DNA of 29,460 bases, from the IMG/VR virus record IMGVR_UViG_3300024262_000180, positions 1 through 29,460 of that record; one strand, written 5' to 3'. Shown here in pieces: positions 5,220 to 29,017 of this stretch. Each line of letters starts with the position of its first letter. Within the stretch, counting starts at the first letter, position 1. The notes beneath the pieces are model-generated. The model did no database searches. It was not told the origin of the DNA and saw only the letters and a list, made by a program, of their open reading frames with translations. The DNA is from a virus. The position numbers were made by a program, and so were the translations under genes.

Positions 5220-6170
5220 TTAATCTGTTACAACTGCCGTACTTGGAACGAATGCAGCCTTGACCTTAAAAAGTTGAATGAAAGTATTCTCATGTGTATC
5301 CGAATCCTGAATATAAAGTTGCGCTGAGTCTCCGGTACTCCAACCACTAACATCGTCAGTTTGAGCCACATAACTTGTACTTGTTGTTGATTTTGTTGTC
5401 CCCACTGGACTCCCATTCCTGTAAACTCTGCTATTTACAGTTGCCCAACCACCGGAACTTTTCATTTCCCAAGTAAACCTATATTGACCCGGCAAGCCGA
5501 CGGTTATTTCTTTTACTAAAGACCAGCTCGTGTCCGCAACTGTGTTAGATCTCTCCGTATCTGCGGACGCTAAAATATCATCTGTAGCCACAACCTCCGC
5601 ATCATTAAGCAAGCTATGGCGATGTAAGGTGTCTGCGATCGTTGATGTCCCGCCCAATAGCGTTGACGTTACGTTCGTATGCTGTGCGCTTGTAAGATGA
5701 TAATACTGTGCGGCTGTTCCGCCTTGTAACCCGGATGCGTCATTATGCGCGAACGATGGCGCTTGCCATGTAAGAAGCCCCGCAACCATACTTAAAACAT
5801 CACCATTGGAGCCTTTTGCTAGATTGACCCATTGGCTCGAGCCGTTCCGGTGTAAAATGTCTTGCGTTGCCGCGCCGGTGATAACCACATCGCCAACGTC
5901 ATTTAGGACTGACCCGGATTTGTTTATCTTGCTCCAAGCGATAGCGGCTGACGTGTTGATGTCCGCGTTTACGATGGAATCGGATAAGGCTAGTTTTGAA
6001 TAAGCAACCGCGGCGGCGCCATCAAGATCAGCGTTCACCAGTTTAGTCCCATCGGCGTCTTGATGGTGCGCTCCACGAATGGAATCTCGTAAATCTGTGA
6101 AGTTTTGATTGACCTCCGAGGCTCTGGCGATTGTCATGGCCACAAAGGTATAAGTTACATCAATCGACAT
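5220..6170 (-). CDS. Tail-tip / receptor-region protein
   Basis: 316 residues. The N-terminus (ARASEVNQNFTDLRDSIRG) and the short repeats VNADLDGAAAVAYSKLALSD and VNADINTSAAIAWSKI are typical of phage tail fibre shafts that trimerise. A central segment (DILHRNGSSQWVNLAKGSNG) resembles repeats in fibres from many environmental phages. The C-terminal 120 residues are beta-rich (SWSLVKEITVGLPGQYRFTW), probably a jelly-roll head. It lies directly after the Tal gene, where host-recognition proteins usually are. GTAACC is 7 bases before ATG at 6170. Confidence 0.7.
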   Translation of the reverse strand: MSIDVTYTFVAMTIARASEVNQNFTDLRDSIRGAHHQDADGTKLVNADLDGAAAVAYSKLALSDSIVNADINTSAAIAWSKINKSGSVLNDVGDVVITGAATQDILHRNGSSQWVNLAKGSNGDVLSMVAGLLTWQAPSFAHNDASGLQGGTAAQYYHLTSAQHTNVTSTLLGGTSTIADTLHRHSLLNDAEVVATDDILASADTERSNTVADTSWSLVKEITVGLPGQYRFTWEMKSSGGWATVNSRVYRNGSPVGTTKSTTSTSYVAQTDDVSGWSTGDSAQLYIQDSDTHENTFIQLFKVKAAFVPSTAVVTD

Positions 6171-6171
6171 A

Positions 6172-8388
6172 TTATAAGGTTACAGAATCAGGGGATTTTG
6201 GATTGCCAAGCATTTTTGATGCCTTCACATCCCGGTCAATTTGTTCGATAGTCTCCGCCACTCTTGGCGCGCGACTGCTCACGGTTATTATAGCATAATC
6301 AGGGTGATAAGTTACTGAAACGATTTGCATGAGGCGCTCTTGAATGTTTGAAGGTGAGCTGTCCCAATACATTTCGTCCCAATATCCAAGGTCCCATTTT
6401 GAGAATCCAGTATCAACCAGATTGCGAACGTAAATCATTTGTCCCGGTTGGATGCTTTCAATATCATATCCGAATTCGCTTTGATTGTTGTCGATTATCT
6501 TCATCGTCATCCTGATCTCCGGGTTTTCATTATCATCGAGCTTGCGTTGAGCAAGTGCCTCCATTGTGTCCGGGTCGGTGATGCGCTCATCAGCCTCAAT
6601 AATAGCTTTCCGGCCGTAATTTGTGACTGAACTTGTGCGGGTATACTTCTTATAAAGAGATTCTTCATAATGAGTTTTAAAATATAGGTCATGCGATGAT
6701 AAGGAAAGCGAGCCAATATCAGCTCCGTATTTTAGCACGCCCCCGGCATATCCAGCGGCGGAATCACTATTGAGCTTCACATAATTTGAGCCGTCTGTTG
6801 TCGAGCTTTCCATGACTAGCCAATACTTCTTCCCGTCTGCGATGTCAGTTAAATCAGCCGCCAGATCAATCAAAATATCGGTATTTAAATCCGCGCCATT
6901 CACATCATCGGCCGCCATCATGTACTCAACCAATTTGGTCCCGTCTGGAGCGTCAGCGCCATTGTCGGCTTGGATGCTAAAACTTAAAATCCCGGCGTAT
7001 GTCCCAACGATCGAATCGATTTGGAAAGTGATGCCCGATATGGAATTGACTGTCGGCGTGAACTGTTGGCATCGAACAACGTATCCGGCCGCGTCCCCAA
7101 TATTCACCGTATTATTCACCGTCTCATTCGTTTGATCGTCTAAAGTTTGCGCTCCCCCTGTGAAGTAAATCATATTGATAACGTCCTCGATGTTTTTCTC
7201 GGCGCTGAACTCGATTATATCCTCCCCGAGTTTAAACGTATGATCTGCGCCCTTGCCTTTCGGCGCTAGATGTACAACGTCATCAGCATCGACATTCCAA
7301 AACCAGCGCGTCGGACACATTTCGGCAATAACCTCGATCGCTTCAAAATAAGTTTGATTTGAAAATTCATAAGTTTCCGTATCGCCCACCGGATAAGTTG
7401 ACGTTGCCGTATAGTCCACCGTCCCGCCCTCGGCTGTGAATCGGTCTAAAACATATTGCAACATGCTCTCCGGGTCTTCTGTGGAGCGTGTGAAAGTGGT
7501 ATTGCCATCGGCATCCTCCAAAACATACTCGGATAATTCCATCATATTCGATAAGAAGTGAACGTCGACATATTCCTTTGAGCCTTGTAAGACCGGGCTG
7601 TATCTGGTGAGCTTCCCGGAGTAAATCTGAACGCCTTTTTTGCATGAGTCGGCCTCGTAGTCTATCCAATCAAGGCGGATTCCGGTGATGTCTACTTGCG
7701 CGCCAGTATAAGCAGGATATAAAGCGATCGAATCAATAGCGCTCGAATCAGGCGAACCAGAACCGATCGTTGCTGTGGCCCAGTCAAATTCAATCGTATT
7801 CCAACCGAACTGAAAGGGGTTCCCGGAAGCGTTAGTCGTTACTCGTTTATACCAGCAATCGGCGATTCCATTATCGCCCCATCTTAAATCTAAAGCTGTG
7901 AAATTGGTAAAATCTGTTATTGGAAAATAAATTCGGAGCTTAATCTTTCCAGTCCCCTCATAATCGCTTAAATCGATCGGAGCCATGTCTTCAACATATA
8001 TCGCCGCATAATCAACACCGCTTTTTGTGACGTCGATGTCGAATTTAAGTGACCCGGCGCCGCGAGATACTATCTGGTCATCAGTTGCAATGTTATCGCC
8101 ATCATCACGAACCCCCCACGTCCCATTTACTGAAACAGCATCGCAACTGTGGAGCAAGATAACATCCGGGTCCTCATCAAAACATTGTACTTTTAAGATG
8201 TTATTGAACAAGATCGACCCAAGCTCATCAAATTCGTTGATCTTCTCGGCAAGTGTGAGCTTTAACTCTCCCAAACCTGAATTGATCGTTTTGGTAAACT
8301 CCGGGAGCGTGACCACATTGTCGAGGGTCTTTAAATAGTTCCCGGCGCTGTCATAAATCTTGTAAAGGTAGCGTTTGTTCTTGGCCAT
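6172..8388 (-). CDS. Tal-like tail-associated protein (baseplate hub) with two inserted beta domains
   Basis: 738 residues. The core (residues 1-70, 255-420 and 575-738) matches the prophage tail endopeptidase/gp27-like hub: YLYKIYDSAGNYLKTLDN at the start, then YFEAIEVIAEMCPTRWFWNV and RKAIIEADERITDP. Residues about 72-250 (LLHSCDAVSVNGTWG to DITGIRLDWIDYE) look like a carbohydrate-binding jelly roll, and about 420-575 is a second all-beta insert. It follows Dit without a gap, as in Gram-positive siphophages, and forms the tip that first contacts the cell. No peptidase motif is visible. Confidence 0.75.
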   Translation of the reverse strand: MAKNKRYLYKIYDSAGNYLKTLDNVVTLPEFTKTINSGLGELKLTLAEKINEFDELGSILFNNILKVQCFDEDPDVILLHSCDAVSVNGTWGVRDDGDNIATDDQIVSRGAGSLKFDIDVTKSGVDYAAIYVEDMAPIDLSDYEGTGKIKLRIYFPITDFTNFTALDLRWGDNGIADCWYKRVTTNASGNPFQFGWNTIEFDWATATIGSGSPDSSAIDSIALYPAYTGAQVDITGIRLDWIDYEADSCKKGVQIYSGKLTRYSPVLQGSKEYVDVHFLSNMMELSEYVLEDADGNTTFTRSTEDPESMLQYVLDRFTAEGGTVDYTATSTYPVGDTETYEFSNQTYFEAIEVIAEMCPTRWFWNVDADDVVHLAPKGKGADHTFKLGEDIIEFSAEKNIEDVINMIYFTGGAQTLDDQTNETVNNTVNIGDAAGYVVRCQQFTPTVNSISGITFQIDSIVGTYAGILSFSIQADNGADAPDGTKLVEYMMAADDVNGADLNTDILIDLAADLTDIADGKKYWLVMESSTTDGSNYVKLNSDSAAGYAGGVLKYGADIGSLSLSSHDLYFKTHYEESLYKKYTRTSSVTNYGRKAIIEADERITDPDTMEALAQRKLDDNENPEIRMTMKIIDNNQSEFGYDIESIQPGQMIYVRNLVDTGFSKWDLGYWDEMYWDSSPSNIQERLMQIVSVTYHPDYAIITVSSRAPRVAETIEQIDRDVKASKMLGNPKSPDSVTL

Positions 8389-13445: not shown

Positions 13446-14150
13446 TTAAGAAGTGATGTTACCTAATCGTGTGATGTATTTTTTCAGATAGTATTTAGCG
13501 CGGGCCGGAATACGGGCATCAACGCCCTCGGCGAATGTTTCGCTGAACTCTCCGATTGAATAATTCGTGATAGATGGGTCTCCCAAGCTATCGCCAGCAC
13601 CGGAAAGCAACCATGTTGCGATCTCATAAGTTGCGTATTTGATCTCATTCGGGATTTTCTCGATGATATAATATTGATCATCAGCATCCGGAGCAACAGA
13701 AAAATCACCGTCTAAAGTGAAGGTCCCCGTGGCGCGAGCAAAATCTTGTATTCTTAAAAGCTCATATTCGGCATCGCCTGTTCTCATTTCCAAGGCCCAT
13801 CCATTAAAATAATCATCCGGATAGTCCTCTTCCCCTGCATAATCAGCGTCGACAATAACGCGATCAGTACCATCCAAGCTGACTGAATCAATCGTCCCAG
13901 ATTTGAACTCTTGCCAATCTCGAGGGAATTCTAATGGTTGCAATGGGCTTAAACGATACTTACCGCCTCTAAAACGAAAGGAATCGACTATCTTGGCCGC
14001 CTCAACTAGCGCGGCGGATTTCTGGTCATCTGTTGCGGCATCCCAATCGGAGGCGCCATATCGAGCTTCAAAAAAGGCGTCGGCCTCTGTTAAAACAGCG
14101 TATGAGTTCGCCGAGAATTTGGATGGAACGGCATCAATAGTGATTGGCAT
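13446..14150 (-). CDS. Head-tail adaptor with an inserted beta domain
   Basis: 234 residues. The two ends match the helical connector family often annotated as DnaT-like: SYAVLTEADAFFEARYGA, KSAALVEAAKIVDSFRFRGG and LQPLEFPRDWQ near the start, then IPNEIKYATYEIATWLL and ARIPARAKYYLKKYI. Between residues about 82 and 164 an acidic beta-rich segment (GTIDSVSLDGTDRVIVDADY to SVAPDADDQYYIIE) is inserted, which the family does not usually have. The protein fits under the portal and receives the head-closure ring. A candidate promoter lies just upstream. Confidence 0.75.
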   Translation of the reverse strand: MPITIDAVPSKFSANSYAVLTEADAFFEARYGASDWDAATDDQKSAALVEAAKIVDSFRFRGGKYRLSPLQPLEFPRDWQEFKSGTIDSVSLDGTDRVIVDADYAGEEDYPDDYFNGWALEMRTGDAEYELLRIQDFARATGTFTLDGDFSVAPDADDQYYIIEKIPNEIKYATYEIATWLLSGAGDSLGDPSITNYSIGEFSETFAEGVDARIPARAKYYLKKYITRLGNITS

Positions 14151-14185: not shown

Positions 14186-15280
14186 TTACGAAACATAATA
14201 AACATCGCGGGTATTCCAGCGCGTGCGGCCGAGGTATGTCCAATCGGTGAATCGAGTATGCTTATCAAAAAGAGCGATCAATTCCGTGTTGTTTATATTC
14301 TTACCCTCTAGCCAATCCTCCGCATCGGTCCCGATCTCCATAAAGATTCCCTTATTCGTGATTTTATCGAGTTTTTTAAGACCCTCAATCGTGTAATCAA
14401 TCCCTGTTTGTAAGGAATGATGCAAAACGGCAAGACAGATAGTATAGTCATATGTTTTGGTTTCAGAAAGGTTGATAAAATCGGCATGCTCATACGTTGC
14501 GCCGCTTGGGTCGTCAAATTCGAGCTGTTTCATGGCGTCGACATATTGAGGGTCAATATCTATGGCGTGGACCGTGTGACCGTCCCGGGCAAGCTCTCGT
14601 GTAAAGTATCCAAGGCAAGCTCCAATATCGAGAATCGTGGATGGCCCTTCAATAATACTCTTCATCATTTTCAGGCGATCTTTACACTTGCGGCCGAGTT
14701 TAAGGTCCTTTCCGAATCCTTTTGGGAGTGGTTGATACTTCTCTTTTTTGCCCTTATTGATCTCGTGCTGTAGTAAGTGATCGAAATTTTTAATCCTGTG
14801 CATCTTACGAAAGTCATCCCAAGTATCCTCATGCTCATCAACTAGGAAGCTATCAGCGCCAAGGGCGATCAAAGCGGCGGCACGATGATGACCGTCACGA
14901 ATACAGCAATCCCCGGATTCGTCGCGCTTGTGAATCATCACCGGAAACTCAATCCCGTTGTTCATTATGTCCAAGATTAAATCTTGAAAGTCTAAACACC
15001 GTTTAATAATACCGGCCTCGTCTGTTGCTCCGAAAAAACCTTCCGGCAAGAGCTTTAAAGCGTCCATTCCATATTTAAAATAATCTGTATCCACAAACTT
15101 ACAGTCCTCCTGCCCCAATACGAGCTTGGCGAACTTATAATGAGGTGACTCCTTAATTGGCGTCTTAATTGCCAAGTCGTCTCCGTATTTTTGAACCGGG
15201 TCGCAATTCTGGACCATCGAAAACAACGTGTCCGATGTTACTGTAACTGGTTTGCGGGGCTTGCCCATTTTATCAAACAT
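14186..15280 (-). CDS. ParB-like domain fused to a class I SAM methyltransferase
   Basis: 364 residues. The N-terminal half (about 45-150) carries EFPVMIHKRDESGDCCIRDG followed by HHRAAALIALGADSF, the DGHHR motif of the ParB/sulfiredoxin-like fold. From residue 213 a Rossmann methyltransferase starts: ILDIGACLGYFTREL (motif I) and HAIDIDPQY (acidic loop that holds SAM), with CLAVLHHSL in the motif IV region. Such fusions occur in surface-sugar clusters. It is the last gene of the glycan cassette. Substrate unknown; a sugar hydroxyl or a virion protein is plausible. TTAACC stands 7 bases before ATG at 15280. Confidence 0.7.
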   Translation of the reverse strand: MFDKMGKPRKPVTVTSDTLFSMVQNCDPVQKYGDDLAIKTPIKESPHYKFAKLVLGQEDCKFVDTDYFKYGMDALKLLPEGFFGATDEAGIIKRCLDFQDLILDIMNNGIEFPVMIHKRDESGDCCIRDGHHRAAALIALGADSFLVDEHEDTWDDFRKMHRIKNFDHLLQHEINKGKKEKYQPLPKGFGKDLKLGRKCKDRLKMMKSIIEGPSTILDIGACLGYFTRELARDGHTVHAIDIDPQYVDAMKQLEFDDPSGATYEHADFINLSETKTYDYTICLAVLHHSLQTGIDYTIEGLKKLDKITNKGIFMEIGTDAEDWLEGKNINNTELIALFDKHTRFTDWTYLGRTRWNTRDVYYVS

Positions 15281-15289
15281 ATTTTGGGG

Positions 15290-15925
15290 TTAAATTTTTT
15301 TATAAGCGACAACATTCCATTTCCATATTTTCGAGGATACGCTTTGATTTAAAAATTGCTCCTCTTTTTCTGATAGCTTCCCTCCGGGGAATACCCTTTC
15401 AAACTGATCGGCCCACCATTCCAGCGGGTACAATGTAACGTGTGAGGCGTCGCCCTGCGCGTGTTTACTGTCCCCAACTTCCGGATAGTGCATTGTTATC
15501 CCTCCGGGCTTTAAAATCCTCTTAATCTCATCAATAAGACCCGGGATTGCCTCTTCATAAATATGCTCAAGGGTCGCTAGTGAATAAACAAAGTCGAAAC
15601 TGTTATCAGGGAATGGCAATAAGCCTTCCGAAATATCACATAAAAGCACCCTGCTTTGATCGTATGAGTTATCGACAGCGTATTCGGAGCAATCGATTCC
15701 AACAGCATCAGCGCCGAGCAAATTAAGATGTTTGACTTGATAGCCAAAACAACATCCAATATCTAGCACCTTTTTGTCTTTAAGATCGAACACGGCCATC
15801 AGGTCCCGAGCATCGTTCTCATGCGTTGACCCTTCCTGATAATCGAAATATCCTCCTTTAGTCGCCTTGTGATCGACGCCCATAAAGTATTCCTTATCAT
15901 AGAATTCTGGTTTGATTTTAGGCAT
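15290..15925 (-). CDS. Class I SAM-dependent methyltransferase
   Basis: 211 residues. Motif I is KVLDIGCCFGYQVKHL (residues 52-67), the acidic residue after beta 2 is in VGIDCSEYAVD, and PFPDNSFDFVYSLATLEHI covers motifs IV and post-I, followed by the ILKPGG turn. This is the Methyltransf_11 group, commonly acting on sugars or small molecules. It overlaps the GT2-GT4 gene by 8 bases, so it belongs to the glycan cassette and may methylate the glycan made by its neighbours. Substrate cannot be read from the sequence. Confidence 0.8.
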   Translation of the reverse strand: MPKIKPEFYDKEYFMGVDHKATKGGYFDYQEGSTHENDARDLMAVFDLKDKKVLDIGCCFGYQVKHLNLLGADAVGIDCSEYAVDNSYDQSRVLLCDISEGLLPFPDNSFDFVYSLATLEHIYEEAIPGLIDEIKRILKPGGITMHYPEVGDSKHAQGDASHVTLYPLEWWADQFERVFPGGKLSEKEEQFLNQSVSSKIWKWNVVAYKKI

Positions 15926-17804
15926 GGTTTTTGAGTTTTAAGAAGTATTTGTGGAAGCGCTCGGCTACGGCTTCCCAATCGTAGATTTTAATTAAACGGC
16001 GAGCCTCTTTATCACGTTTTTTGAGGCCCTTTCCGTTGTTATTGTAGACTTTTCTCAAGAGTTTTTTAAGGTGAGCTTTATCAGGTTCGGCCCATTTGGG
16101 CTTCTCATCCTTCCCATAATAAGGCTCTTGATCGTTATTGTGGAATGTCGAATGGACCATCTTGGATTTAATCAACTCGGTATTTTCTGGAGTGCAAAAG
16201 CTCATATTGCCACCCCAACCAGTACAGATCACCGGAGCGCCGCAACATAAAGCTTCCAAAATGCACATTCCAAAGCCTTCCGATCTATGCGGATTCACAA
16301 ACGCCCCGTTGACAGCGGCCCGGCGGTAGTATTTAGCCAACTTCTCGGGCGTCCAATAATTCCATTCGTAAATAACACTTGGAGGGTTCTTATGCTTACT
16401 CCTTAAATCTGCCAAAGCTTTTTGCGTATTTTTTCGGTGTCCATAATTCCCATCTTTGAAAAATAACACAATGTTATCACTCCCGGTGAACTCTTCAAAG
16501 TATGCTTTCAATAAAACATCCGTTCCCTTGCGCGGTTGGGTTGCACCGTTAGCGAACAAAAAGAATGTATCCGCGAATTGAATGGCCGGGACGACCTTTG
16601 GATTATAGATATTTTTATCAAGTCCGTTAGGGCTTAAATCGATGACTTTCTCCTTTGGGACTCCTGATCTGATTAAATTCTCACCACAAAACGGCGATGG
16701 CGGATTGATTAGATCGGCCTCCTTTAAAGGCTCGAGCCATGACTTCTGACAAACGTCATTTTCCTGATGGACCCACCAATGCTGTTTCCCTTTATATTCC
16801 ATGACGTTCCCGGTGCATATCCGGAGGCCCATCGGGACGATCTTTTTGGTTGGCTTGCGGATAACATTCCAGCCTTTTTCCCTTAATTTAGCGACCACGT
16901 TGGTCGTGCATATGCAAAGCGATTCCATGCAATCATCCCCATGATAATCGCGATAGACTGTGATCGTGTTATTCTTATTGATTTTCTTTTTGATGTAATC
17001 GAGATTCGATTGGAACTTATCAAACCATGCTTTCCCTTTTTCGTCTTTGTAAGTGCTGTGATATTTATGCTCCCATGGAAATTTGACTGTATAGCTATGC
17101 CACCCGGCAAGTGACGCTCTTAAACAAAGCTCGCTATCCTCATGCCAAAACTCTCCCATGCCCCATTCGTCTAATAATCCGACTTCATGAAACACCTCGC
17201 GGCGAATCATAGTTGCACCACCGGAAACAACGTCGACTTGAATCGGGTCATTTTCTGGCGACATTAAACGCATCCCCGGTTGATTGAAGTCAAAAAATGT
17301 AGTCCCTAAACGCCCAACGAATCCGACGCTTGGGTTATGTAAGAAGATTTCGAGCATAATTTTGTCCCAATCAGGCCCTACAGTCGAATCATTGTCGAAA
17401 AATGCTAAATAGCGGCCTTTAGCGGCCTTGATGCCGTCATTCCGACCTCCAGCCACCCCGCGATTCGTTTCGTTGAGTACAAGCGTGATATTTGGCCTCT
17501 TTTCTGCGAGTTCCTTAAAATATTCCGGAGTCCCGTCTTTTGAGCCGTTATCGACTAGAATCAACTCATAATCGCAACTCGTATGCTCAAAAATAGAATC
17601 GAGGCATTTGACGGTCATTTCTAAACGATTCCACGCCATAATGATAATGCTCACATCGTAAGAACGGCGCCTTGCATCAGCTCCAATGACTTCCGGCCGG
17701 ACTTGGATGTCCATTTTTTCATACCCTTGAGATTCCAAGCCTTTCTCGGCCCAAAAACTATCCGGGACCTCGACAATTCTACCTGTTGGATTTTTTACCC
17801 ACAT
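15918..17804 (-). CDS. Bifunctional GT2-GT4 glycosyltransferase
   Basis: 628 residues. Residues 50-275 are a GT-A family 2 enzyme: SIIIMAWNRLEMTVKCLDS, ILVDNGSKDGT, the metal-binding FFDNDS (DND 137-139) and the late HED (221-223). Residues about 280-628 are a GT-B family 4 enzyme with GATQPRKGTDVLL and the E-x7-E motif in SEGFGMCILEAL (Glu 509 and 517). The first 45 residues (MWVKNPTGRIVEVPDSFWAE) belong to neither and resemble short N-terminal domains of phage head proteins, so they might dock the enzyme to the virion. It overlaps both neighbours (10 and 8 bases). Two sugar-transfer steps in one chain suggest a short glycan of at least two sugars. Confidence 0.85.
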   Translation of the reverse strand: MWVKNPTGRIVEVPDSFWAEKGLESQGYEKMDIQVRPEVIGADARRRSYDVSIIIMAWNRLEMTVKCLDSIFEHTSCDYELILVDNGSKDGTPEYFKELAEKRPNITLVLNETNRGVAGGRNDGIKAAKGRYLAFFDNDSTVGPDWDKIMLEIFLHNPSVGFVGRLGTTFFDFNQPGMRLMSPENDPIQVDVVSGGATMIRREVFHEVGLLDEWGMGEFWHEDSELCLRASLAGWHSYTVKFPWEHKYHSTYKDEKGKAWFDKFQSNLDYIKKKINKNNTITVYRDYHGDDCMESLCICTTNVVAKLREKGWNVIRKPTKKIVPMGLRICTGNVMEYKGKQHWWVHQENDVCQKSWLEPLKEADLINPPSPFCGENLIRSGVPKEKVIDLSPNGLDKNIYNPKVVPAIQFADTFFLFANGATQPRKGTDVLLKAYFEEFTGSDNIVLFFKDGNYGHRKNTQKALADLRSKHKNPPSVIYEWNYWTPEKLAKYYRRAAVNGAFVNPHRSEGFGMCILEALCCGAPVICTGWGGNMSFCTPENTELIKSKMVHSTFHNNDQEPYYGKDEKPKWAEPDKAHLKKLLRKVYNNNGKGLKKRDKEARRLIKIYDWEAVAERFHKYFLKLKNHA

Positions 17805-18769
17805 AATAAAGATTTTAATTTATTTGCTGTCTGTTTATATGTCCAATTTTTAGAGACCCACATGGCGTTCTTATAATTCCACTCGTCCAACATGGGGTCA
17901 TCTTGGCGATTGTAAATCTCGCGCATCATTCGGGCCATGTATCCAACGTCGCAAGCAATCATCTTCCCGGTGTCTTCTGTCTTATAGTGATCGTATTGGG
18001 CGTCGCACCAGTCCCAAGTCAGCTCGATAAAACGACCTTGATCGAAATACTCGCCCATCCCGGAGCCGTCTGGAATCATTACGGGAATCCCTGTTGCCAT
18101 AGCTTCAAGAGGGGTGTGTCCAAAGCCTTCTCCCCTGCTCGGGAATACCATGCAATCGGCCTTATTTATCACTTCCATTTGTAAGCGGTCCCGGGGAAAT
18201 TCTCGATAGTCCCATTCGATATTCGGATACTGATGCATCGGTGGCATGTTGCCTTTAGGCCATACTGTCTTGAATATAAGCTTTACCGGGTCATCAGGTT
18301 TAAACGCCTTTTGGAAAGCCTTGAAAGTTATGTCCCATCCTTTTCGATAACCATAAGCGTCATAATGCAGGAAAGTATAAACTTTCTTACCTTCCGGGCG
18401 CTTATAATACTTGAAAAACTTGGGATTGTAGCCAAGCGGAACGACCTCGGCATCAAAGCCAGCATCCTTCATGGCCTGTTGATTGAACTTACACGGGACG
18501 ATGATAAGATCGGCTTGTTTAAGCGGTGCAATCCAATCATCGGGGATTTTACTCGACTCGAACATCGTGAAAATGACAAGCTTCTTACATCCCCATCGTT
18601 TAATAAACTTGATGTTGTGCGGATAACCGTAAACAAGGCCCACGTCGCGGCCTTTATAGTCTTCAATCAAATTGACCCCAACCTTTTTGAGCGACTCTTC
18701 AATATCGGCTCGCGATTGAGGATAACCGTTGCACGCTTTATGCGTGACGCTTTTAAAGCTGATGTCCAT
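17795..18769 (-). CDS. Family 4 glycosyltransferase (GT-B)
   Basis: 324 residues, soluble, no membrane segment. The C-terminal half shows HYDAYGYRKGWDITFKAF (phosphate-binding RKG at about 142-144) and PSRGEGFGHTPLEAMATG with the E-x7-E pair at Glu 214 and 222, which holds the nucleotide sugar. It transfers a sugar from a nucleotide donor with retention. It is the first gene of the cassette after the major capsid protein and overlaps the next glycosyltransferase gene by ten bases. Two AAAACC elements precede ATG at 18769. Donor and acceptor are unknown; a capsid or tail protein is the inferred acceptor. Confidence 0.82.
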   Translation of the reverse strand: MDISFKSVTHKACNGYPQSRADIEESLKKVGVNLIEDYKGRDVGLVYGYPHNIKFIKRWGCKKLVIFTMFESSKIPDDWIAPLKQADLIIVPCKFNQQAMKDAGFDAEVVPLGYNPKFFKYYKRPEGKKVYTFLHYDAYGYRKGWDITFKAFQKAFKPDDPVKLIFKTVWPKGNMPPMHQYPNIEWDYREFPRDRLQMEVINKADCMVFPSRGEGFGHTPLEAMATGIPVMIPDGSGMGEYFDQGRFIELTWDWCDAQYDHYKTEDTGKMIACDVGYMARMMREIYNRQDDPMLDEWNYKNAMWVSKNWTYKQTANKLKSLLCG

Positions 18770-18798
18770 AATGTAGGTTTTGAGGTTTTAATCACGTT

Positions 18799-18825
18799 GC
18801 CCGCCCCGGGGTAAGCAGGGCGGGC
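18799..18825 (-). terminator. GC-rich hairpin after the major capsid gene
   Basis: GCCCGCCC (18825-18818) pairs with GGGCGGGC (18806-18799), eight GC-rich pairs around an 11-base loop, about 90 bases after the capsid stop. No T run follows, so partial termination or 3' protection of the capsid message is more likely than full termination. The rest of 18770-18913 shows no convincing gene or promoter. Confidence 0.5.
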
Positions 18826-18913
18826 GCTGTGAACAAAATGTCTATCGTGTTTTTTGATCGGCCGTGATGTCGCGCTTATGGCTCAAACATCCAAGTCAAT
18901 CGGGTGTCGACGT

Positions 18914-19846
18914 TTAGGTTTGCACATCGACTGCGGCTGTGTTCCGTAGAATTGCCACGCCGTACAATACGTCGAGGGAGTATTTAGTTGCCAATGCACC
19001 GTGATCGTAAGATTCGGTGTATCGGATACCTAAACCAGAAACAGGGTCGGCCACATAAGCTTGCTTTGCTCCTTTACCATCACCGGAAGTTCCAAGATTA
19101 CGGAATCCACAAACGAACGCTGTCTTGTGGAAAGCGATGTTGTGAGTTGTAACCGGGGAAGCTCCAACTTGGAGAATACCTTGGTGAACAAAATGTTTGA
19201 ATCCAAGAATCGGTCGAGGTGAAATTAGGCCGGTTGAATTGATCGACGCGGCTTGTGCTTCACCAACACTTGAAGCTGAATAAAAGTCAGTATCCTGCAA
19301 TAGAGCGGATTCATCTTTTGGATGCCAGAAGATGTAACGATCAGTTAGAGGGATTTTAGCCTCATTAAGGGTTTGACGTACGTCCACGATAAGATCGCGA
19401 TCGGCATCAGTTCCCGGGGTTCCGTCACTTTGAGTGAGTGTTGCATATAGAGCAAGAATGTCGCCGTCGAATTGTTCTGCAATTCCGCGTAGACCTTCCG
19501 CAATATAACCTTCTCCAAGATTTATCATCGAGTGAAGAGCTGTTACATCTTCCACACCAAAACAAACGTATTTGTGTTTGTTGATGCTTAAAGAAACAAC
19601 GGAAGTTGTTGGCTCTTCAACTGTCATATCTGTTTGTCCGCTCTTGTCTCTAACTGTTAGAGTTCCGAGGCTTGGAATGACAACGGTATCACCTTTTTTG
19701 AAGGTGGCCATTTGGTCCACGTCAACATAATCTTTATCTTTGGCGATCTTGTCGAGTAGAACTGACGAATTGCGGAGAATATCAAGTGCTTTGTTAGCAA
19801 TAGTCTCCGGGGTAAGGTTCGTCTCCTTATCGATATATGAGGTCAT
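18914..19846 (-). CDS. Major capsid protein (HK97 fold)
   Basis: 310 residues. The N-terminal arm (SYIDKETNLTPETIANKALD), the beta strand region FKKGDTVVIPSLGTLTVRDK, the spine helix ALHSMINLGEGYIAEGLRGI and the peripheral domain GIRYTESYDHGALATKYSLD near the end match capsid proteins of the P22-like coat group. It follows a scaffold protein, which fits a coat without a fused delta domain. CTAACC stands ten bases before ATG at 19846. It is followed by a GC-rich hairpin and then by the glycan cassette, which makes it a candidate glycan acceptor. Confidence 0.85.
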   Translation of the reverse strand: MTSYIDKETNLTPETIANKALDILRNSSVLLDKIAKDKDYVDVDQMATFKKGDTVVIPSLGTLTVRDKSGQTDMTVEEPTTSVVSLSINKHKYVCFGVEDVTALHSMINLGEGYIAEGLRGIAEQFDGDILALYATLTQSDGTPGTDADRDLIVDVRQTLNEAKIPLTDRYIFWHPKDESALLQDTDFYSASSVGEAQAASINSTGLISPRPILGFKHFVHQGILQVGASPVTTHNIAFHKTAFVCGFRNLGTSGDGKGAKQAYVADPVSGLGIRYTESYDHGALATKYSLDVLYGVAILRNTAAVDVQT

Positions 19847-25481: not shown

Positions 25482-25489
25482 TGCCTGTT
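25467..25489. promoter_or_regulatory. Inverted repeat around the -35 box (operator candidate)
   Basis: AACAGG (25467-25472) and CCTGTT (25484-25489) form a 6-bp inverted repeat that encloses the -35 hexamer of the terminase promoter. It could be a repressor site or a weak hairpin at the end of the upstream gene. Confidence 0.35.
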
Positions 25490-26478
25490 TAAGCCACTTC
25501 ATTCATAAATCCAAGAGTGCTTCCGGTGTTGGTGTATTGATTGCCGTCAGTAGGTTCAAAAACATAACCGATCTCATTTTCGTTCTCTACAAATACAAAA
25601 CGATTTGCCCATTTCGCCGGGACAGCATAAATTTGTCTCAAGCTACCAATGCCCCTGACTGTCTCCGCGGCTTGTCCTGCGAGTGCACAAATTGAATATA
25701 ATAAAGGCATCGTCCATTTCTTGTCGTCTTGGGTCATCATATTGACTGCTCCACTCCATGTCTGTTGGATTCTTGCGTTTTTCATTAAGATTTTCTTATT
25801 AGCCGGTGTTGATGGGTCAAAGCACATCACCTTCTCAGCGTCATTGTTCCCATTGGATGTCATAAACAAAGAGGAGGAATTTATAAAATCAGAATTTAAA
25901 CCAGCGGCCGCGCCGTTAGTTATTAAACCATATATTCTCCCATCTGCTTCCGCCTTGCCGATTTGTGGCTCGAATATAGCGCCTAAAATGACAACCTTGT
26001 GATGCTCTCTCCCATTTAGTAAATCTTCACATCTAAAGGCGACCATTAAGCTTTCGGAACTTTCGATGATATAAACATCCTTTGGGCGACCGGCTTCCCC
26101 GGCATTTGTAACGGCGACGGAATAATATCCACTCCATCTTACGCCTTGCCCCCAAGGTTCCGCGCTATCCCATGCGCCAAGTGTTCCTCCGTCTGGAGTG
26201 ATTGCGACATAAATCGGGATTCTTGAACTTAAAGTTCCATGCAACCATCCAAAGGTGCTACTTGATGGATGTCCGGTGAATAAAGCTCTTAAATTAGGTG
26301 TTCCGCTCCCCGCTTTCGGGCCGATCTCTAAATATCCAGCGGCGCTACTCTTGGTCTCCCAATGAGTAGAATTATCGATCGCGGCCTTGAGGGCATCTAA
26401 ATCTTGTTGTAATGACCCCGGGTTACCTCCGTTGGCCTCATAATAAGCGCTTTGGACCCATGTAAGTTGCGTTAGCAT
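25489..26478 (-). CDS. Putative virion protein, unrecognised
   Basis: 329 residues. The start (LTQLTWVQSAYYEANGGNPG) is followed by a helix (LQQDLDALKAAIDNSTHWET) and then long beta-rich stretches (YLEIGPKAGSGTPNLRALFT, SRIPIYVAITPDGGTLGAWD). The composition (rich in G, S, N and T, no catalytic motif) and the end GYVFEPTDGNQYTNTGSTLG resemble capsid or baseplate decoration proteins. Its neighbours upstream are of the same type. TTAACC stands seven bases before ATG at 26478. Structural role inferred only. Confidence 0.6.
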   Translation of the reverse strand: MLTQLTWVQSAYYEANGGNPGSLQQDLDALKAAIDNSTHWETKSSAAGYLEIGPKAGSGTPNLRALFTGHPSSSTFGWLHGTLSSRIPIYVAITPDGGTLGAWDSAEPWGQGVRWSGYYSVAVTNAGEAGRPKDVYIIESSESLMVAFRCEDLLNGREHHKVVILGAIFEPQIGKAEADGRIYGLITNGAAAGLNSDFINSSSLFMTSNGNNDAEKVMCFDPSTPANKKILMKNARIQQTWSGAVNMMTQDDKKWTMPLLYSICALAGQAAETVRGIGSLRQIYAVPAKWANRFVFVENENEIGYVFEPTDGNQYTNTGSTLGFMNEVA

Positions 26479-26487
26479 AATAGAAGG

Positions 26488-26766
26488 TTAAATATCAGAA
26501 ATGTTGGAAAAATAAGCTAGTGTTTTGATGTAATTGTAAGCTTGCGTGTATAAGCTGTCAGCGGATTCGGTGTCATATGGAATTTTCACGAACCATTCAT
26601 GTAAAATCTCATTGCTATCTCTCCCGGCCGCATCTTTATAGAATATGATCTGGCAATCGAATTGATCTTTTGCTCCCGTAAGCTTTCCAATGCGAACGTA
26701 GGCTTGCCCTAGTGAATAATCTGCGCCGTCCGCTGTGGTTGTGTTGAGGTCTGTAAGAATAGCCAT
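26488..26766 (-). CDS. Small hypothetical protein, likely structural
   Basis: 92 residues, AILTDLNTTTADGADYSLGQ at the start, then beta strands (QIIFYKDAAGRDSNEILHEW, FVKIPYDTESADSLYTQAYN). No known domain. It lies nine bases after the preceding gene and ten before the next, so it is part of the five-gene unit from 29017 to 25489. No TAACC element is present; an A/T-rich leader precedes the ATG. A small virion component is a reasonable guess. Confidence 0.6.
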   Translation of the reverse strand: MAILTDLNTTTADGADYSLGQAYVRIGKLTGAKDQFDCQIIFYKDAAGRDSNEILHEWFVKIPYDTESADSLYTQAYNYIKTLAYFSNISDI

Positions 26767-26775
26767 GATTAGATT

Positions 26776-27423
26776 TTAATTAAATACTAAAGGGGAAGGA
26801 TAAAGGAAATTAGATGGTGGCGGCGGTGGGGCTGGCATATCGTCGAAAGTCACTACCACATTATCACCATCCAAGGCTTTCGATACGATGTTCCAAGTGT
26901 GCGCCCATACGAAATTCGGATGATAGATGAAAATATTTGAATTTGTCGGCAACTGTACAGGGCCAAACTTCTCATTTGGTAAGCGTATAAAATTCCCCGT
27001 CACATCAACGTCAGTTAGTCCACCGGGCATTGTAGCCGCCGGGAATGTCCACGTTTGATTGCTCGGCCCGATTGTCCCATATGTCCCATCGTAAAAATTC
27101 GTGAATTCCGCGTAACTATTTGTTGTGGGGTCTGGCGGCAAGCCTCTTGCGGGCGGCTCTTCTCCAACTTCCGGCTCTATAAATAAAACACTATTATCCT
27201 GTTGGAAAATTTTAAGCTCTTCCCTTTTGCGTCTTAAAGCGCTCGGGATGCTTAATAACAATGCGCGCATTTCTGGGTTCTCTCTTGGGATTGGTATAAA
27301 AAAACAGGATTTATCAGGTGTTAAATGAGCAGAAAAAAGCTCCTTATTCGGGTCATTCACGGCGGCCCAACCAAGCCATATATTCTTCAAAATAAAAATG
27401 TAATCAATTTTATATGAGGCCAT
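26776..27423 (-). CDS. Hypothetical protein, likely structural
   Basis: 215 residues. The N-terminal half (SYKIDYIFILKNIWLGWAAV, RREELKIFQQDNSVLFIEPE) is followed by a Pro-rich linker (GEEPPARGLPPDPTTNSY) and a beta-rich C-terminal half (TWTFPAATMPGGLTDVDVTG, NIFIYHPNFVWAHTWNIVSK) ending PPPPPSNFLYPSP. The layout suggests an attachment domain and a beta head joined by a flexible linker, as in minor fibre proteins. ATAACA stands ten bases before the ATG. Not recognised. Confidence 0.6.
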   Translation of the reverse strand: MASYKIDYIFILKNIWLGWAAVNDPNKELFSAHLTPDKSCFFIPIPRENPEMRALLLSIPSALRRKREELKIFQQDNSVLFIEPEVGEEPPARGLPPDPTTNSYAEFTNFYDGTYGTIGPSNQTWTFPAATMPGGLTDVDVTGNFIRLPNEKFGPVQLPTNSNIFIYHPNFVWAHTWNIVSKALDGDNVVVTFDDMPAPPPPPSNFLYPSPLVFN

Positions 27424-27425
27424 AA

Positions 27426-28619
27426 TTAACGCATGTTATACAGTAAATTCTCAAGATAAGCTCGCTCTTTTGTGTCTAAAATTCTATCGAAAAACCCAAG
27501 CGTCTCAAACTTTGCGGCTGTGACTCCAGTTGGCGTGATATTAGGACCGGGGAAGCAAGCGTGAGCATATGGCGCCCCTTGGAATAATCCAGCTCGATGA
27601 CTCCCTAATGTATAGCTTGTCGCGTAATCTGTTTGATTTATTCTAATCTCTTCCGCTCCCGAGCTTTGATATTCATTTATCCATGCGACTTTTTGCAAAC
27701 CGTGAGGGTCAACACCAGCGCCTTGATATCTTGCATAACCTACGCCATCGATACTGACTAAACCCTCGGGCTTTGAGGAATATTCTCTTTGCCAAATTGA
27801 TCGTTCATCGAATCCCGTTATAGTTGCCCAAAATCCCTGCATTGTATAAGACCTCGTCCCGGGATGATACAACGAAAACATTGTAACATCATTCCCGGCG
27901 TCGAGTTGGCCTTGGCGATTGAAGTTATATCCTCCGCCGACTCCAGTCCCGGGATATTCATATCCATCAGAATCAAAGGCTCCGCGATCATAGCCCAATG
28001 GATATATAAATATATGAGTATCGTTTTCAATTGGTTTGATTTCCCAATCGTCAATAATGCAACTCAAAGGCGTTGTCGTCCCGGTATTCCTTAATTGAAG
28101 CGCCCCTGTTGCACCAGCATAAGAGGAAAAATATATCGTTCCTTCAACTGGACCATCTGCCGCATTAAAATCTATCACTAAACTTAATTGCCACGGGGTC
28201 CACATCGCGATTCTAATTTGCGCGAATCCGGAAAGGACGTGGATTTTATATTTAAATTGATATGTCTGGCGATGGACAAGATTTGGCATCACGGTTTGGC
28301 CGAAAACGGTGTTATTGTATCGAGTATCATTATCAACACGTTGCGCGCTCACTCCACTTGATTTCCAAGGCAACGTCGTTTCTTCTGATGGCGTCCCTGT
28401 CCCCACAAAATACCAATCACCGGGGGCAATTCCTCCAACATATTCACCTTCAAAGCCCGGATTGTCCAAGATGTCATTTTCTCCGATTTGCAATACCGGG
28501 TCCATTAAATTATAAATCAAGTTATTGTCATGGTATCGATAATCATAAAGAGCCGCGGGTTGCATTTCCATTAAGTTGAAAATTGGCTCCTTTGGATTTC
28601 TTGCGAGTGCGTTTAACAT
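27426..28619 (-). CDS. Virion adhesin-like protein with carbohydrate-binding-like domain
   Basis: 397 residues. Residues about 45-195 (ENDILDNPGFEGEYVGGIAP to LSCIIDDWEIKPI) have the order of a CBM4/9-type jelly roll: NPGFE near the start, a Trp after it, and the closing IIDDWE strand. The C-terminal half has LamG-like features (TMFSLYHPGTRSYTMQGFWA, LGFFDRILDTKERAYLENLL, the last a very common end for LamG/concanavalin-like domains). Two sugar-binding-like folds suggest attachment to host glycans. AAACC stands eight bases before ATG at 28619. It lies far from the tail tip genes. Confidence 0.65.
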   Translation of the reverse strand: MLNALARNPKEPIFNLMEMQPAALYDYRYHDNNLIYNLMDPVLQIGENDILDNPGFEGEYVGGIAPGDWYFVGTGTPSEETTLPWKSSGVSAQRVDNDTRYNNTVFGQTVMPNLVHRQTYQFKYKIHVLSGFAQIRIAMWTPWQLSLVIDFNAADGPVEGTIYFSSYAGATGALQLRNTGTTTPLSCIIDDWEIKPIENDTHIFIYPLGYDRGAFDSDGYEYPGTGVGGGYNFNRQGQLDAGNDVTMFSLYHPGTRSYTMQGFWATITGFDERSIWQREYSSKPEGLVSIDGVGYARYQGAGVDPHGLQKVAWINEYQSSGAEEIRINQTDYATSYTLGSHRAGLFQGAPYAHACFPGPNITPTGVTAAKFETLGFFDRILDTKERAYLENLLYNMR

Positions 28620-28630
28620 AAAAAATTGGT

Positions 28631-29017
28631 TTAAGCGGCGATATTTGCATCCATATCATTATCGGCATTGCTGATTCCATAACAAATTCCAATATTGCCA
28701 GCCAAGCTGTCGCCTATTACGCTCGCGAACTTCCCGGCCGCGCCGACAAGTGGAAAGCTATAAGTTACGTTTTGAACTAGAAAAATGCTAGTCAGCACCG
28801 ACTTACTTGCTGAAACAGCTCCTCCAAAGCTAATCCAACAGTTCTGATCGGCTTGGATTGCGATGATTTGGTTTGGTTTATATGATAGCTCTCCGGCCGT
28901 AGCGGTTGAACTATTGAACGCGATCGATTCGTGGAATATCTGATCGGAAGGGGCGTTTGCTTTGTATTTATCTTTTATGGGGAAACCTTTTTCAATTTCA
29001 GTTGGTCCATCGCTCAT
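28631..29017 (-). CDS. Small beta-rich protein, first gene of the adhesion unit
   Basis: 128 residues: DGPTEIEKGFPIKDKYKANA, then AFNSSTATAGELSYKPNQII, AIQADQNCWISFGGAVSASK and TYSFPLVGAAGKFASVIGDS, all beta-like and low in charge. The pattern resembles small phage virion proteins annotated as decoration or head fibre proteins, but no family is certain. It directly follows the promoter at 29047-29075. ATAACA stands nine bases before ATG at 29017. Confidence 0.65.
   Translation of the reverse strand: MSDGPTEIEKGFPIKDKYKANAPSDQIFHESIAFNSSTATAGELSYKPNQIIAIQADQNCWISFGGAVSASKSVLTSIFLVQNVTYSFPLVGAAGKFASVIGDSLAGNIGICYGISNADNDMDANIAA

Follow-up and report, generated by a model that had tools for sequence, protein, structure and literature searches.

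Why should a tailed phage carry four genes for sugar-handling enzymes among its head genes? The question is raised by IMG/VR virus record IMGVR_UViG_3300024262_000180, a 29,460-base sequence of an uncultured tailed phage that is referred to here, at its full length, as the window. Its main genes all lie on the minus strand and run from structural-like genes through terminase, portal, MuF, scaffold and capsid to Ad1, Hc1 and the neck, followed by tail terminator, tail tube, tape measure, Dit, Tal, fibre and endolysin. This is the canonical head-tail order except for a cassette (18769-14186) that separates the gene for the major capsid protein (MCP) from Ad1, the first head-tail connector. The cassette encodes a GT4-family glycosyltransferase (GT), a GT2-GT4 fusion, a methyltransferase (MT) and a fusion of a ParB-like domain with a second MT domain (ParB-MT). 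A preliminary description had placed the four open reading frames (ORFs) at this spot, overlapping or nearly so. All are indeed present: the first and second genes overlap by 10 nt, the second and third overlap by 8 nt, and 9 nt separate the third from the fourth. Pfam supports the GT2, GT4 and MT domains, so that the four-gene arrangement is not a chance observation.

The cassette is probably a core module of the late genes whose enzymes, working in the host cytoplasm, assemble a short glycan on a structural protein of the phage; the position of the cassette makes the MCP the most likely acceptor. Cytoplasmic glycosylation of the virion is the best-supported explanation because of the gene order, the conservation of the cassette alongside the capsid and a parallel in the cluster O mycobacteriophages. 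On these three grounds the glycosylation proposed in the preliminary description is partly supported. It is qualified by the distance of the GTs from those of phage Che8 and by an acceptor that is assigned from gene position.

A single sister contig, IMGVR_UViG_3300008255_001485 (L006), was found by scanning with the GT2-GT4 protein. A search of related phages for the four-gene order had been suggested as a check, and L006 carries the same genes in identical order between the equivalent capsid and Ad1 genes. Protein identities between the window and L006 are 69% for GT4, 70% for GT2-GT4, 71% for the small MT and 64% for ParB-MT. The capsid proteins share 71%, the Ad1 proteins 64%, the scaffolds 52% and the tape measures 49%. 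Nonsynonymous divergence (pN) is 0.19-0.24 in the cassette and synonymous divergence (pS) 0.75-0.86, compared to 0.225 and 0.81 in the MCP gene; the cassette pN is lower than that of the tape measure and scaffold genes. All genes compared have nearly saturated synonymous sites, and GC content is level across the cassette region. Because it is conserved about as well as the capsid, with synonymous sites near saturation and flat GC content, the cassette is, judged from these comparisons, an old core part of the genome and not a recent passenger.

In more distant relatives of the capsid, the stretch between capsid and connector genes can accommodate insertions. At the equivalent spot, Gordonia phage Morgana and Corynebacterium phage PSonyx lack the cassette and have one small gene each. 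Streptomyces phage Keanu has six genes there, one of them annotated as a methyltransferase; three were tested, and none matched Pfam. The gap between the capsid and GT4 genes of the window contains a stem-loop that lacks a clear T run, and the equivalent gap in L006 folds more weakly (z -0.66).

Two papers that cite Freeman et al. (2023) report that phage GTs make glycans on mycobacteriophage capsid and tail tube, and that Che8, Corndog and Myrna have glycosylated proteins (PMC11256854, PMC12363180). According to a third, which also cites that study, an O-methyltransferase gene is followed by three tandem GT genes in cluster O phages, a cassette type that is reported to modify capsid and tail tube (PMC11600133). 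In the cluster O phage Schuy, gp34-37 are an O-methyltransferase and three tandem GTs located between the portal and the capsid maturation protease and MCP genes. The preliminary description had noted such enzymes beside structural genes in some actinobacterial phages; GT genes cluster with virion structural genes in the window, L006 and Schuy alike. Like the mycobacteriophage cassettes, the window cassette combines an MT with three GT activities in one operon of soluble enzymes, and it shares its location among head genes with those of cluster O. Unlike them, it has a GT4 and a GT2-GT4 fusion in place of three small GTs, and a second MT fused to a ParB-like domain. It also follows the MCP gene, whereas the Schuy cassette precedes it. 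In Mycobacterium phage LunaBlu (OR253903.1), gene 109, which lies beside a homologue of Che8 gp110 (gene 110), is annotated as a serine/threonine kinase.

The window GTs look catalytically intact, with EX7E motifs in both GT4 domains and a DND motif in the GT2 domain. GT4 would start or extend the chain, and the GT2 and GT4 domains of the fusion would add further sugars. The small MT would then methylate a sugar. Its nearest solved relatives in a profile search of the PDB include phosphoethanolamine N-methyltransferases and a D-glucose O-methyltransferase; the same search gave it no match to WbdD, the kinase/methyltransferase that terminates O9a O-antigen chains. ParB-MT would finish the chain with a terminal modification, for which a WbdD-like cap is favoured. 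Its ParB-like domain would bind a nucleotide and perhaps transfer phosphate to the end sugar; methylation of that phosphate would fall to its MT domain. The two methylations suggested as possible in the preliminary description need refining, as the one ascribed to ParB-MT may be a methyl-phosphate cap. PADLOC mad2 matches were dismissed as generic MT matches.

O-antigen conversion is a frequent annotation for phage GTs, and the GtrB-like family phrog_841 matches the GT2 domain of the fusion. The cassette enzymes might accordingly modify a host cell-surface glycan for receptor masking or superinfection exclusion. WbdD, too, works on a lipid-linked cell-surface polysaccharide (PMC3482155). In L006, a 77-aa PQ-loop (SemiSWEET-like) membrane ORF (6949-7182) sits between ParB-MT and Ad1, with a PF04193 match of E 3e-7 for the longer frame 6889-7182; the window has no room for such an ORF. 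The absence of a flippase, polymerase or membrane anchor noted in the preliminary description is true of the window, whereas L006 has this membrane ORF directly after its cassette. The window has no polyprenol anchor enzyme, no membrane GT and no transporter of the kind found in ABC-exported O-antigen loci. Conversion genes usually turn over fast; the cassette genes lie in the late structural block, overlap one another and are conserved as the capsid is. No promoter or terminator of their own rises above shuffle expectation. Modification of the host surface is unlikely on this evidence.

If the glycan is placed on the virion, a tail or fibre protein could be its carrier instead of the capsid. 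Gene position points to the capsid protein as a candidate acceptor, and analogy points to the tail tube; the Ser/Thr-rich fibre protein encoded at 5220-6170 is a third candidate. Published cassettes modify capsid and tail tube alike (PMC12363180, PMC11600133). The fibre protein (6170-5220) is 22% Ser/Thr and has a sub-threshold BclA_C match. A Ser/Thr-rich collagen-like protein is encoded both by L022, a phage with ParB-MT and an FkbM-GT4 protein, and by L192, in which a related GT4 lies behind an apparent capsid gene. The cassette, however, directly follows the MCP gene in both the window and L006, and the Ser/Thr-rich fibre is conserved in L006 at its N-terminus only. Transfer to a tail or fibre protein is thus possible but somewhat doubtful.

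Further observations concern these proteins. The collagen-like proteins of L022 (14035-14919) and L192 (4789-5970) have Gly-X-Ser/Thr repeats and are possible O-glycan acceptors. In the virus L192/L193, domains read by eye place the related GT4 shortly downstream of the capsid-like gene, ahead of a gene for a collagen-like Gly-X-Thr protein and of one that is GT2-like. A fibre gene in L007 (15100-16626) matches the window fibre at its N-terminus and has instead a glycine-rich, receptor-binding-like C-terminus.

The fourth gene bears on how the glycan would end. We read ParB-MT as a glycan-capping enzyme and not as a DNA methylase. A profile built from the window and L006 proteins alone has WbdD as its best PDB match (E 5.5e-8). 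With five fusions, WbdD reaches E 1.3e-17, ahead of UbiG (1e-9), the next family, by eight orders of magnitude; SbnI follows at 0.002. An AlphaFold model from two sequences was useless (predicted local distance difference test, pLDDT, 32), and one from seven sequences was moderate (pLDDT 61.7); the MT half of the latter was used for fold searches. Foldseek ranks WbdD entries first to fifth and a methylphosphate capping enzyme sixth, and both of these enzymes methylate a phosphate. Structural Z values from VIA-align fail to tell MT families apart, and the matches listed there do not include WbdD.

With hhalign, the MT domain aligns over its whole length to a WbdD (L009), at E 9e-17 with L013 included. 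Window residues Y182, R197, C199, R202, H287, H288 and R358 are paired with WbdD Y16, R31, C33, R36, H132, H133 and R203, although the last pairing depends on the alignment of one C-terminal hairpin. In WbdD, each of the substitutions H132A, H133A, R203A and Y16F abolishes methylation while phosphorylation persists. H132, H133 and R203 are linked to phosphate use, and a neighbouring sulphate pocket is lined by R31, C33 and R36 (PMC3482155). All four residues essential for methylation therefore have aligned counterparts in the window. Y182, R197 and R202 are invariant in seven of seven aligned fusions; both histidines occur in the window, L006 and L013, and the others have one. Paired histidines are also possible in NodS- or RebM-type enzymes (PMC3482155), and the residue matches fit a phosphate methyltransferase, short of proof. 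An apparent FDxH match (338-341, against WbdD 194-197) was dropped because it precedes the hairpin in the better alignment.

ParB-MT resembles WbdD in its nearest solved MT family, in these seven residue counterparts and in its fused nucleotide-binding partner domain. The partner differs: it is an N-terminal ParB/SerK-like domain in the window and a C-terminal eukaryotic-type kinase in WbdD. No such kinase is present in ParB-MT, which stops after its MT domain and has no C-terminal coiled coil. Its gene, moreover, is a phage gene beside a capsid gene. We tentatively propose, as a possibility that falls somewhat short of an even chance, that the virion glycan is ended by a methyl-phosphate cap, with one protein in which a ParB-fold kinase replaces the eukaryotic-type kinase of WbdD.

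The ParB-like assignment was weak at first (phrog_1033, E 7e-4). It is backed by a DGHHR box that is invariant in seven divergent relatives, partly by selection since the relatives were found with this pattern, and by a profile match of the N-terminal domain to SbnI. Searched alone against the PDB, this domain has as its best matches free serine kinases of the ParB fold (SbnI at E 5.8e-4, then SbnI and SerK entries at 0.12-0.25) and no match to a canonical ParB. The helix-turn-helix, dimerisation domain and neighbouring parA gene of a canonical ParB partition protein are likewise missing, leaving just the box-II region and the MT domain. For L006, NCBIfam puts ParB (1.3e-4) slightly ahead of SerK (1.5e-3), both below cut-off, and for this reason the serine-kinase assignment is a lead and not a fact. 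Only about 43-53 residues align with SbnI and SerK, around the DGHHR/DGVHR box. The N-terminal half of the domain, where model confidence is mixed, is not alignable, and it is there that the catalytic glutamate of SerK presumably lies.

Sugar addition to DNA bases would be a different use for such enzymes. A 2025 survey lists phage ParB-Methyltransf_23 fusions with predicted DNA methyltransferase activity and reports that bacterial fusions of ParB with S-adenosylmethionine (SAM) methyltransferases bind ATP (PMC12704722). The cassette GT4 also matches the Pfam family GT4-conflict. The cassette could thus hypermodify phage DNA, with ParB-MT as a DNA methylase, but several findings make this very improbable. 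No base-hydroxylating or base-synthesis gene was detected in the 29-kb fragment, although that fragment lacks the replication region. The MT domain looks like WbdD and like MTs that act on small molecules or glycans. ParB-MT shares its domain pairing with the fusions of the survey (ParB-CTPase fold and Methyltransf_23), yet its members in the present set lie among glycan enzymes and look like an MT for sugar phosphates.

These members were difficult to find. Searches of phages with ParB-MT by tblastn (E up to 1) gave no relatives, nor did genome scans. Relatives were found by a DNA pattern for DGHHR followed by a SAM motif at the right distance, most matches to which were chance frames in GC-rich genomes. 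Genuine fusions occur in phages L013, L016, L022 (with its near-copy L029) and L153, in Paenibacillus lautus (L041) and in Novosphingobium (L109/L186); whole-genome searches added L187 and L188. They are rare in bacteria, with few matches among about 800 genomes. In eight of the nine lineages (Table 1), ParB-MT adjoins glycan enzymes or is fused to them, with window and L006 counted as one lineage and L022 and L029 as another. These enzymes include GTs, a sulfotransferase, a pyruvyl transferase and FkbM MTs. As a control, a GT4 profile found GT4 genes at none of 117 chance-matched bacterial loci. This count is a lower bound, as the home-made profile was seeded from the same loci and missed the L187 GT4 that Pfam detects. 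It is chiefly this company of glycan enzymes, in eight lineages out of nine, that speaks against a DNA methylase.

Table 1. Features of the cassette region in the window, and genes found with ParB-MT in each lineage
Feature	Sequence	Coordinates	Strand	Evidence or neighbours
Major capsid protein, 144 nt upstream of cassette	Window	18914..19846	-	phrog_283 E 4.4e-37
144-nt gap, capsid to GT4 genes	Window	18770..18913	-	Strong GC-rich stem-loop GCCCGCCC...GGGGCGGGC; RNA fold z -3.26
GT4-family glycosyltransferase, 324 aa, first gene after capsid gene	Window	17795..18769	-	EX7E motif E214-E222; PF00534 E 7.9e-12; phrog_2170 E 1.4e-29
GT2-GT4 fusion glycosyltransferase, 628 aa	Window	15918..17804	-	GT2 motif DND 137-139; GT4 EX7E E509-E517; PF00535 E 2.8e-32; PF00534 E 1.9e-12
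Class I SAM methyltransferase, 211 aa	Window	15290..15925	-	PF08241 E 1e-19
ParB-like (SbnI/SerK-like, DGHHR box 129-133) and WbdD-like methyltransferase, 364 aa	Window	14186..15280	-	MT domain Pfam E 2.8e-9; PDB profile matches
Head-tail adaptor Ad1, downstream border, 35 nt from cassette	Window	13446..14150	-	phrog_477 E 1.3e-18
ParB-MT	Window and L006			GT4, GT2-GT4, MT
ParB-MT	L013			GT4-GT4, radical SAM, MT, then ParB-MT
ParB-MT within one 955-aa protein	L016	1805-4672	-	ParB-like, MT, FkbM-like MT part (by eye), GT4 part (local profile)
ParB-MT	L022 and L153			FkbM-GT4 directly after ParB-MT, near terminase; L153 also cytidylyltransferase
ParB-MT	L041 (Paenibacillus)			GT4, MT, ParB-MT; order as in window
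ParB-MT	L187			GT2, sulfotransferase, GT4, Stealth
ParB-MT	L188			GT41 and polysaccharide pyruvyl transferase
ParB-MT	L186 (Novosphingobium)			No glycan neighbours

Several points weigh against glycosylation of the virion in the cytoplasm as described here. The phage is uncultured, and its cassette is known from genes alone. In BLASTP and profile searches, the window GTs have no significant match to Che8 gp109 or to Che8 gp110, of the family that includes Corndog gp38, and a weak, GT2-level match to gp108. Their nearest phage relatives are in Streptomyces phages, adjoining a ribonucleotide reductase gene. Several actinophages have related GT4s in that setting and not beside a capsid gene, so that position alone cannot fix the acceptor. 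In L006, the PQ-loop ORF may point to a membrane step. Alignment of the ParB-like domain allowed no kinase catalytic residue to be mapped, and the Novosphingobium fusion lies outside any glycan cluster.

Elsewhere in the window, upstream of the terminase gene, ORFs of 329, 215, 397 and 128 aa (25489-29017, minus strand) have no Pfam or PHROG match and resemble structural or fibre proteins in sequence.

The layout of a glycosylation cassette among head genes is already known; new here is the combination of a WbdD-like MT with a SbnI/SerK-like domain in the fourth gene. The glycan may serve as a shield, as published for mycobacteriophages, or may promote adhesion to polymers or particle stability in this presumably environmental phage. 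Phage sugar coats alter how antibodies, and possibly other binders, see the particles. With its different enzymes, this uncultured phage takes the idea of virion glycosylation beyond the mycobacteriophages. ParB-MT gains a testable function, the capping of a glycan with a methylated phosphate, where the 2025 survey predicted DNA methylation. If this is true, the ParB-Methyltransf_23 fusions that are now predicted to be DNA methylases would be a wider family of glycan-capping enzymes.

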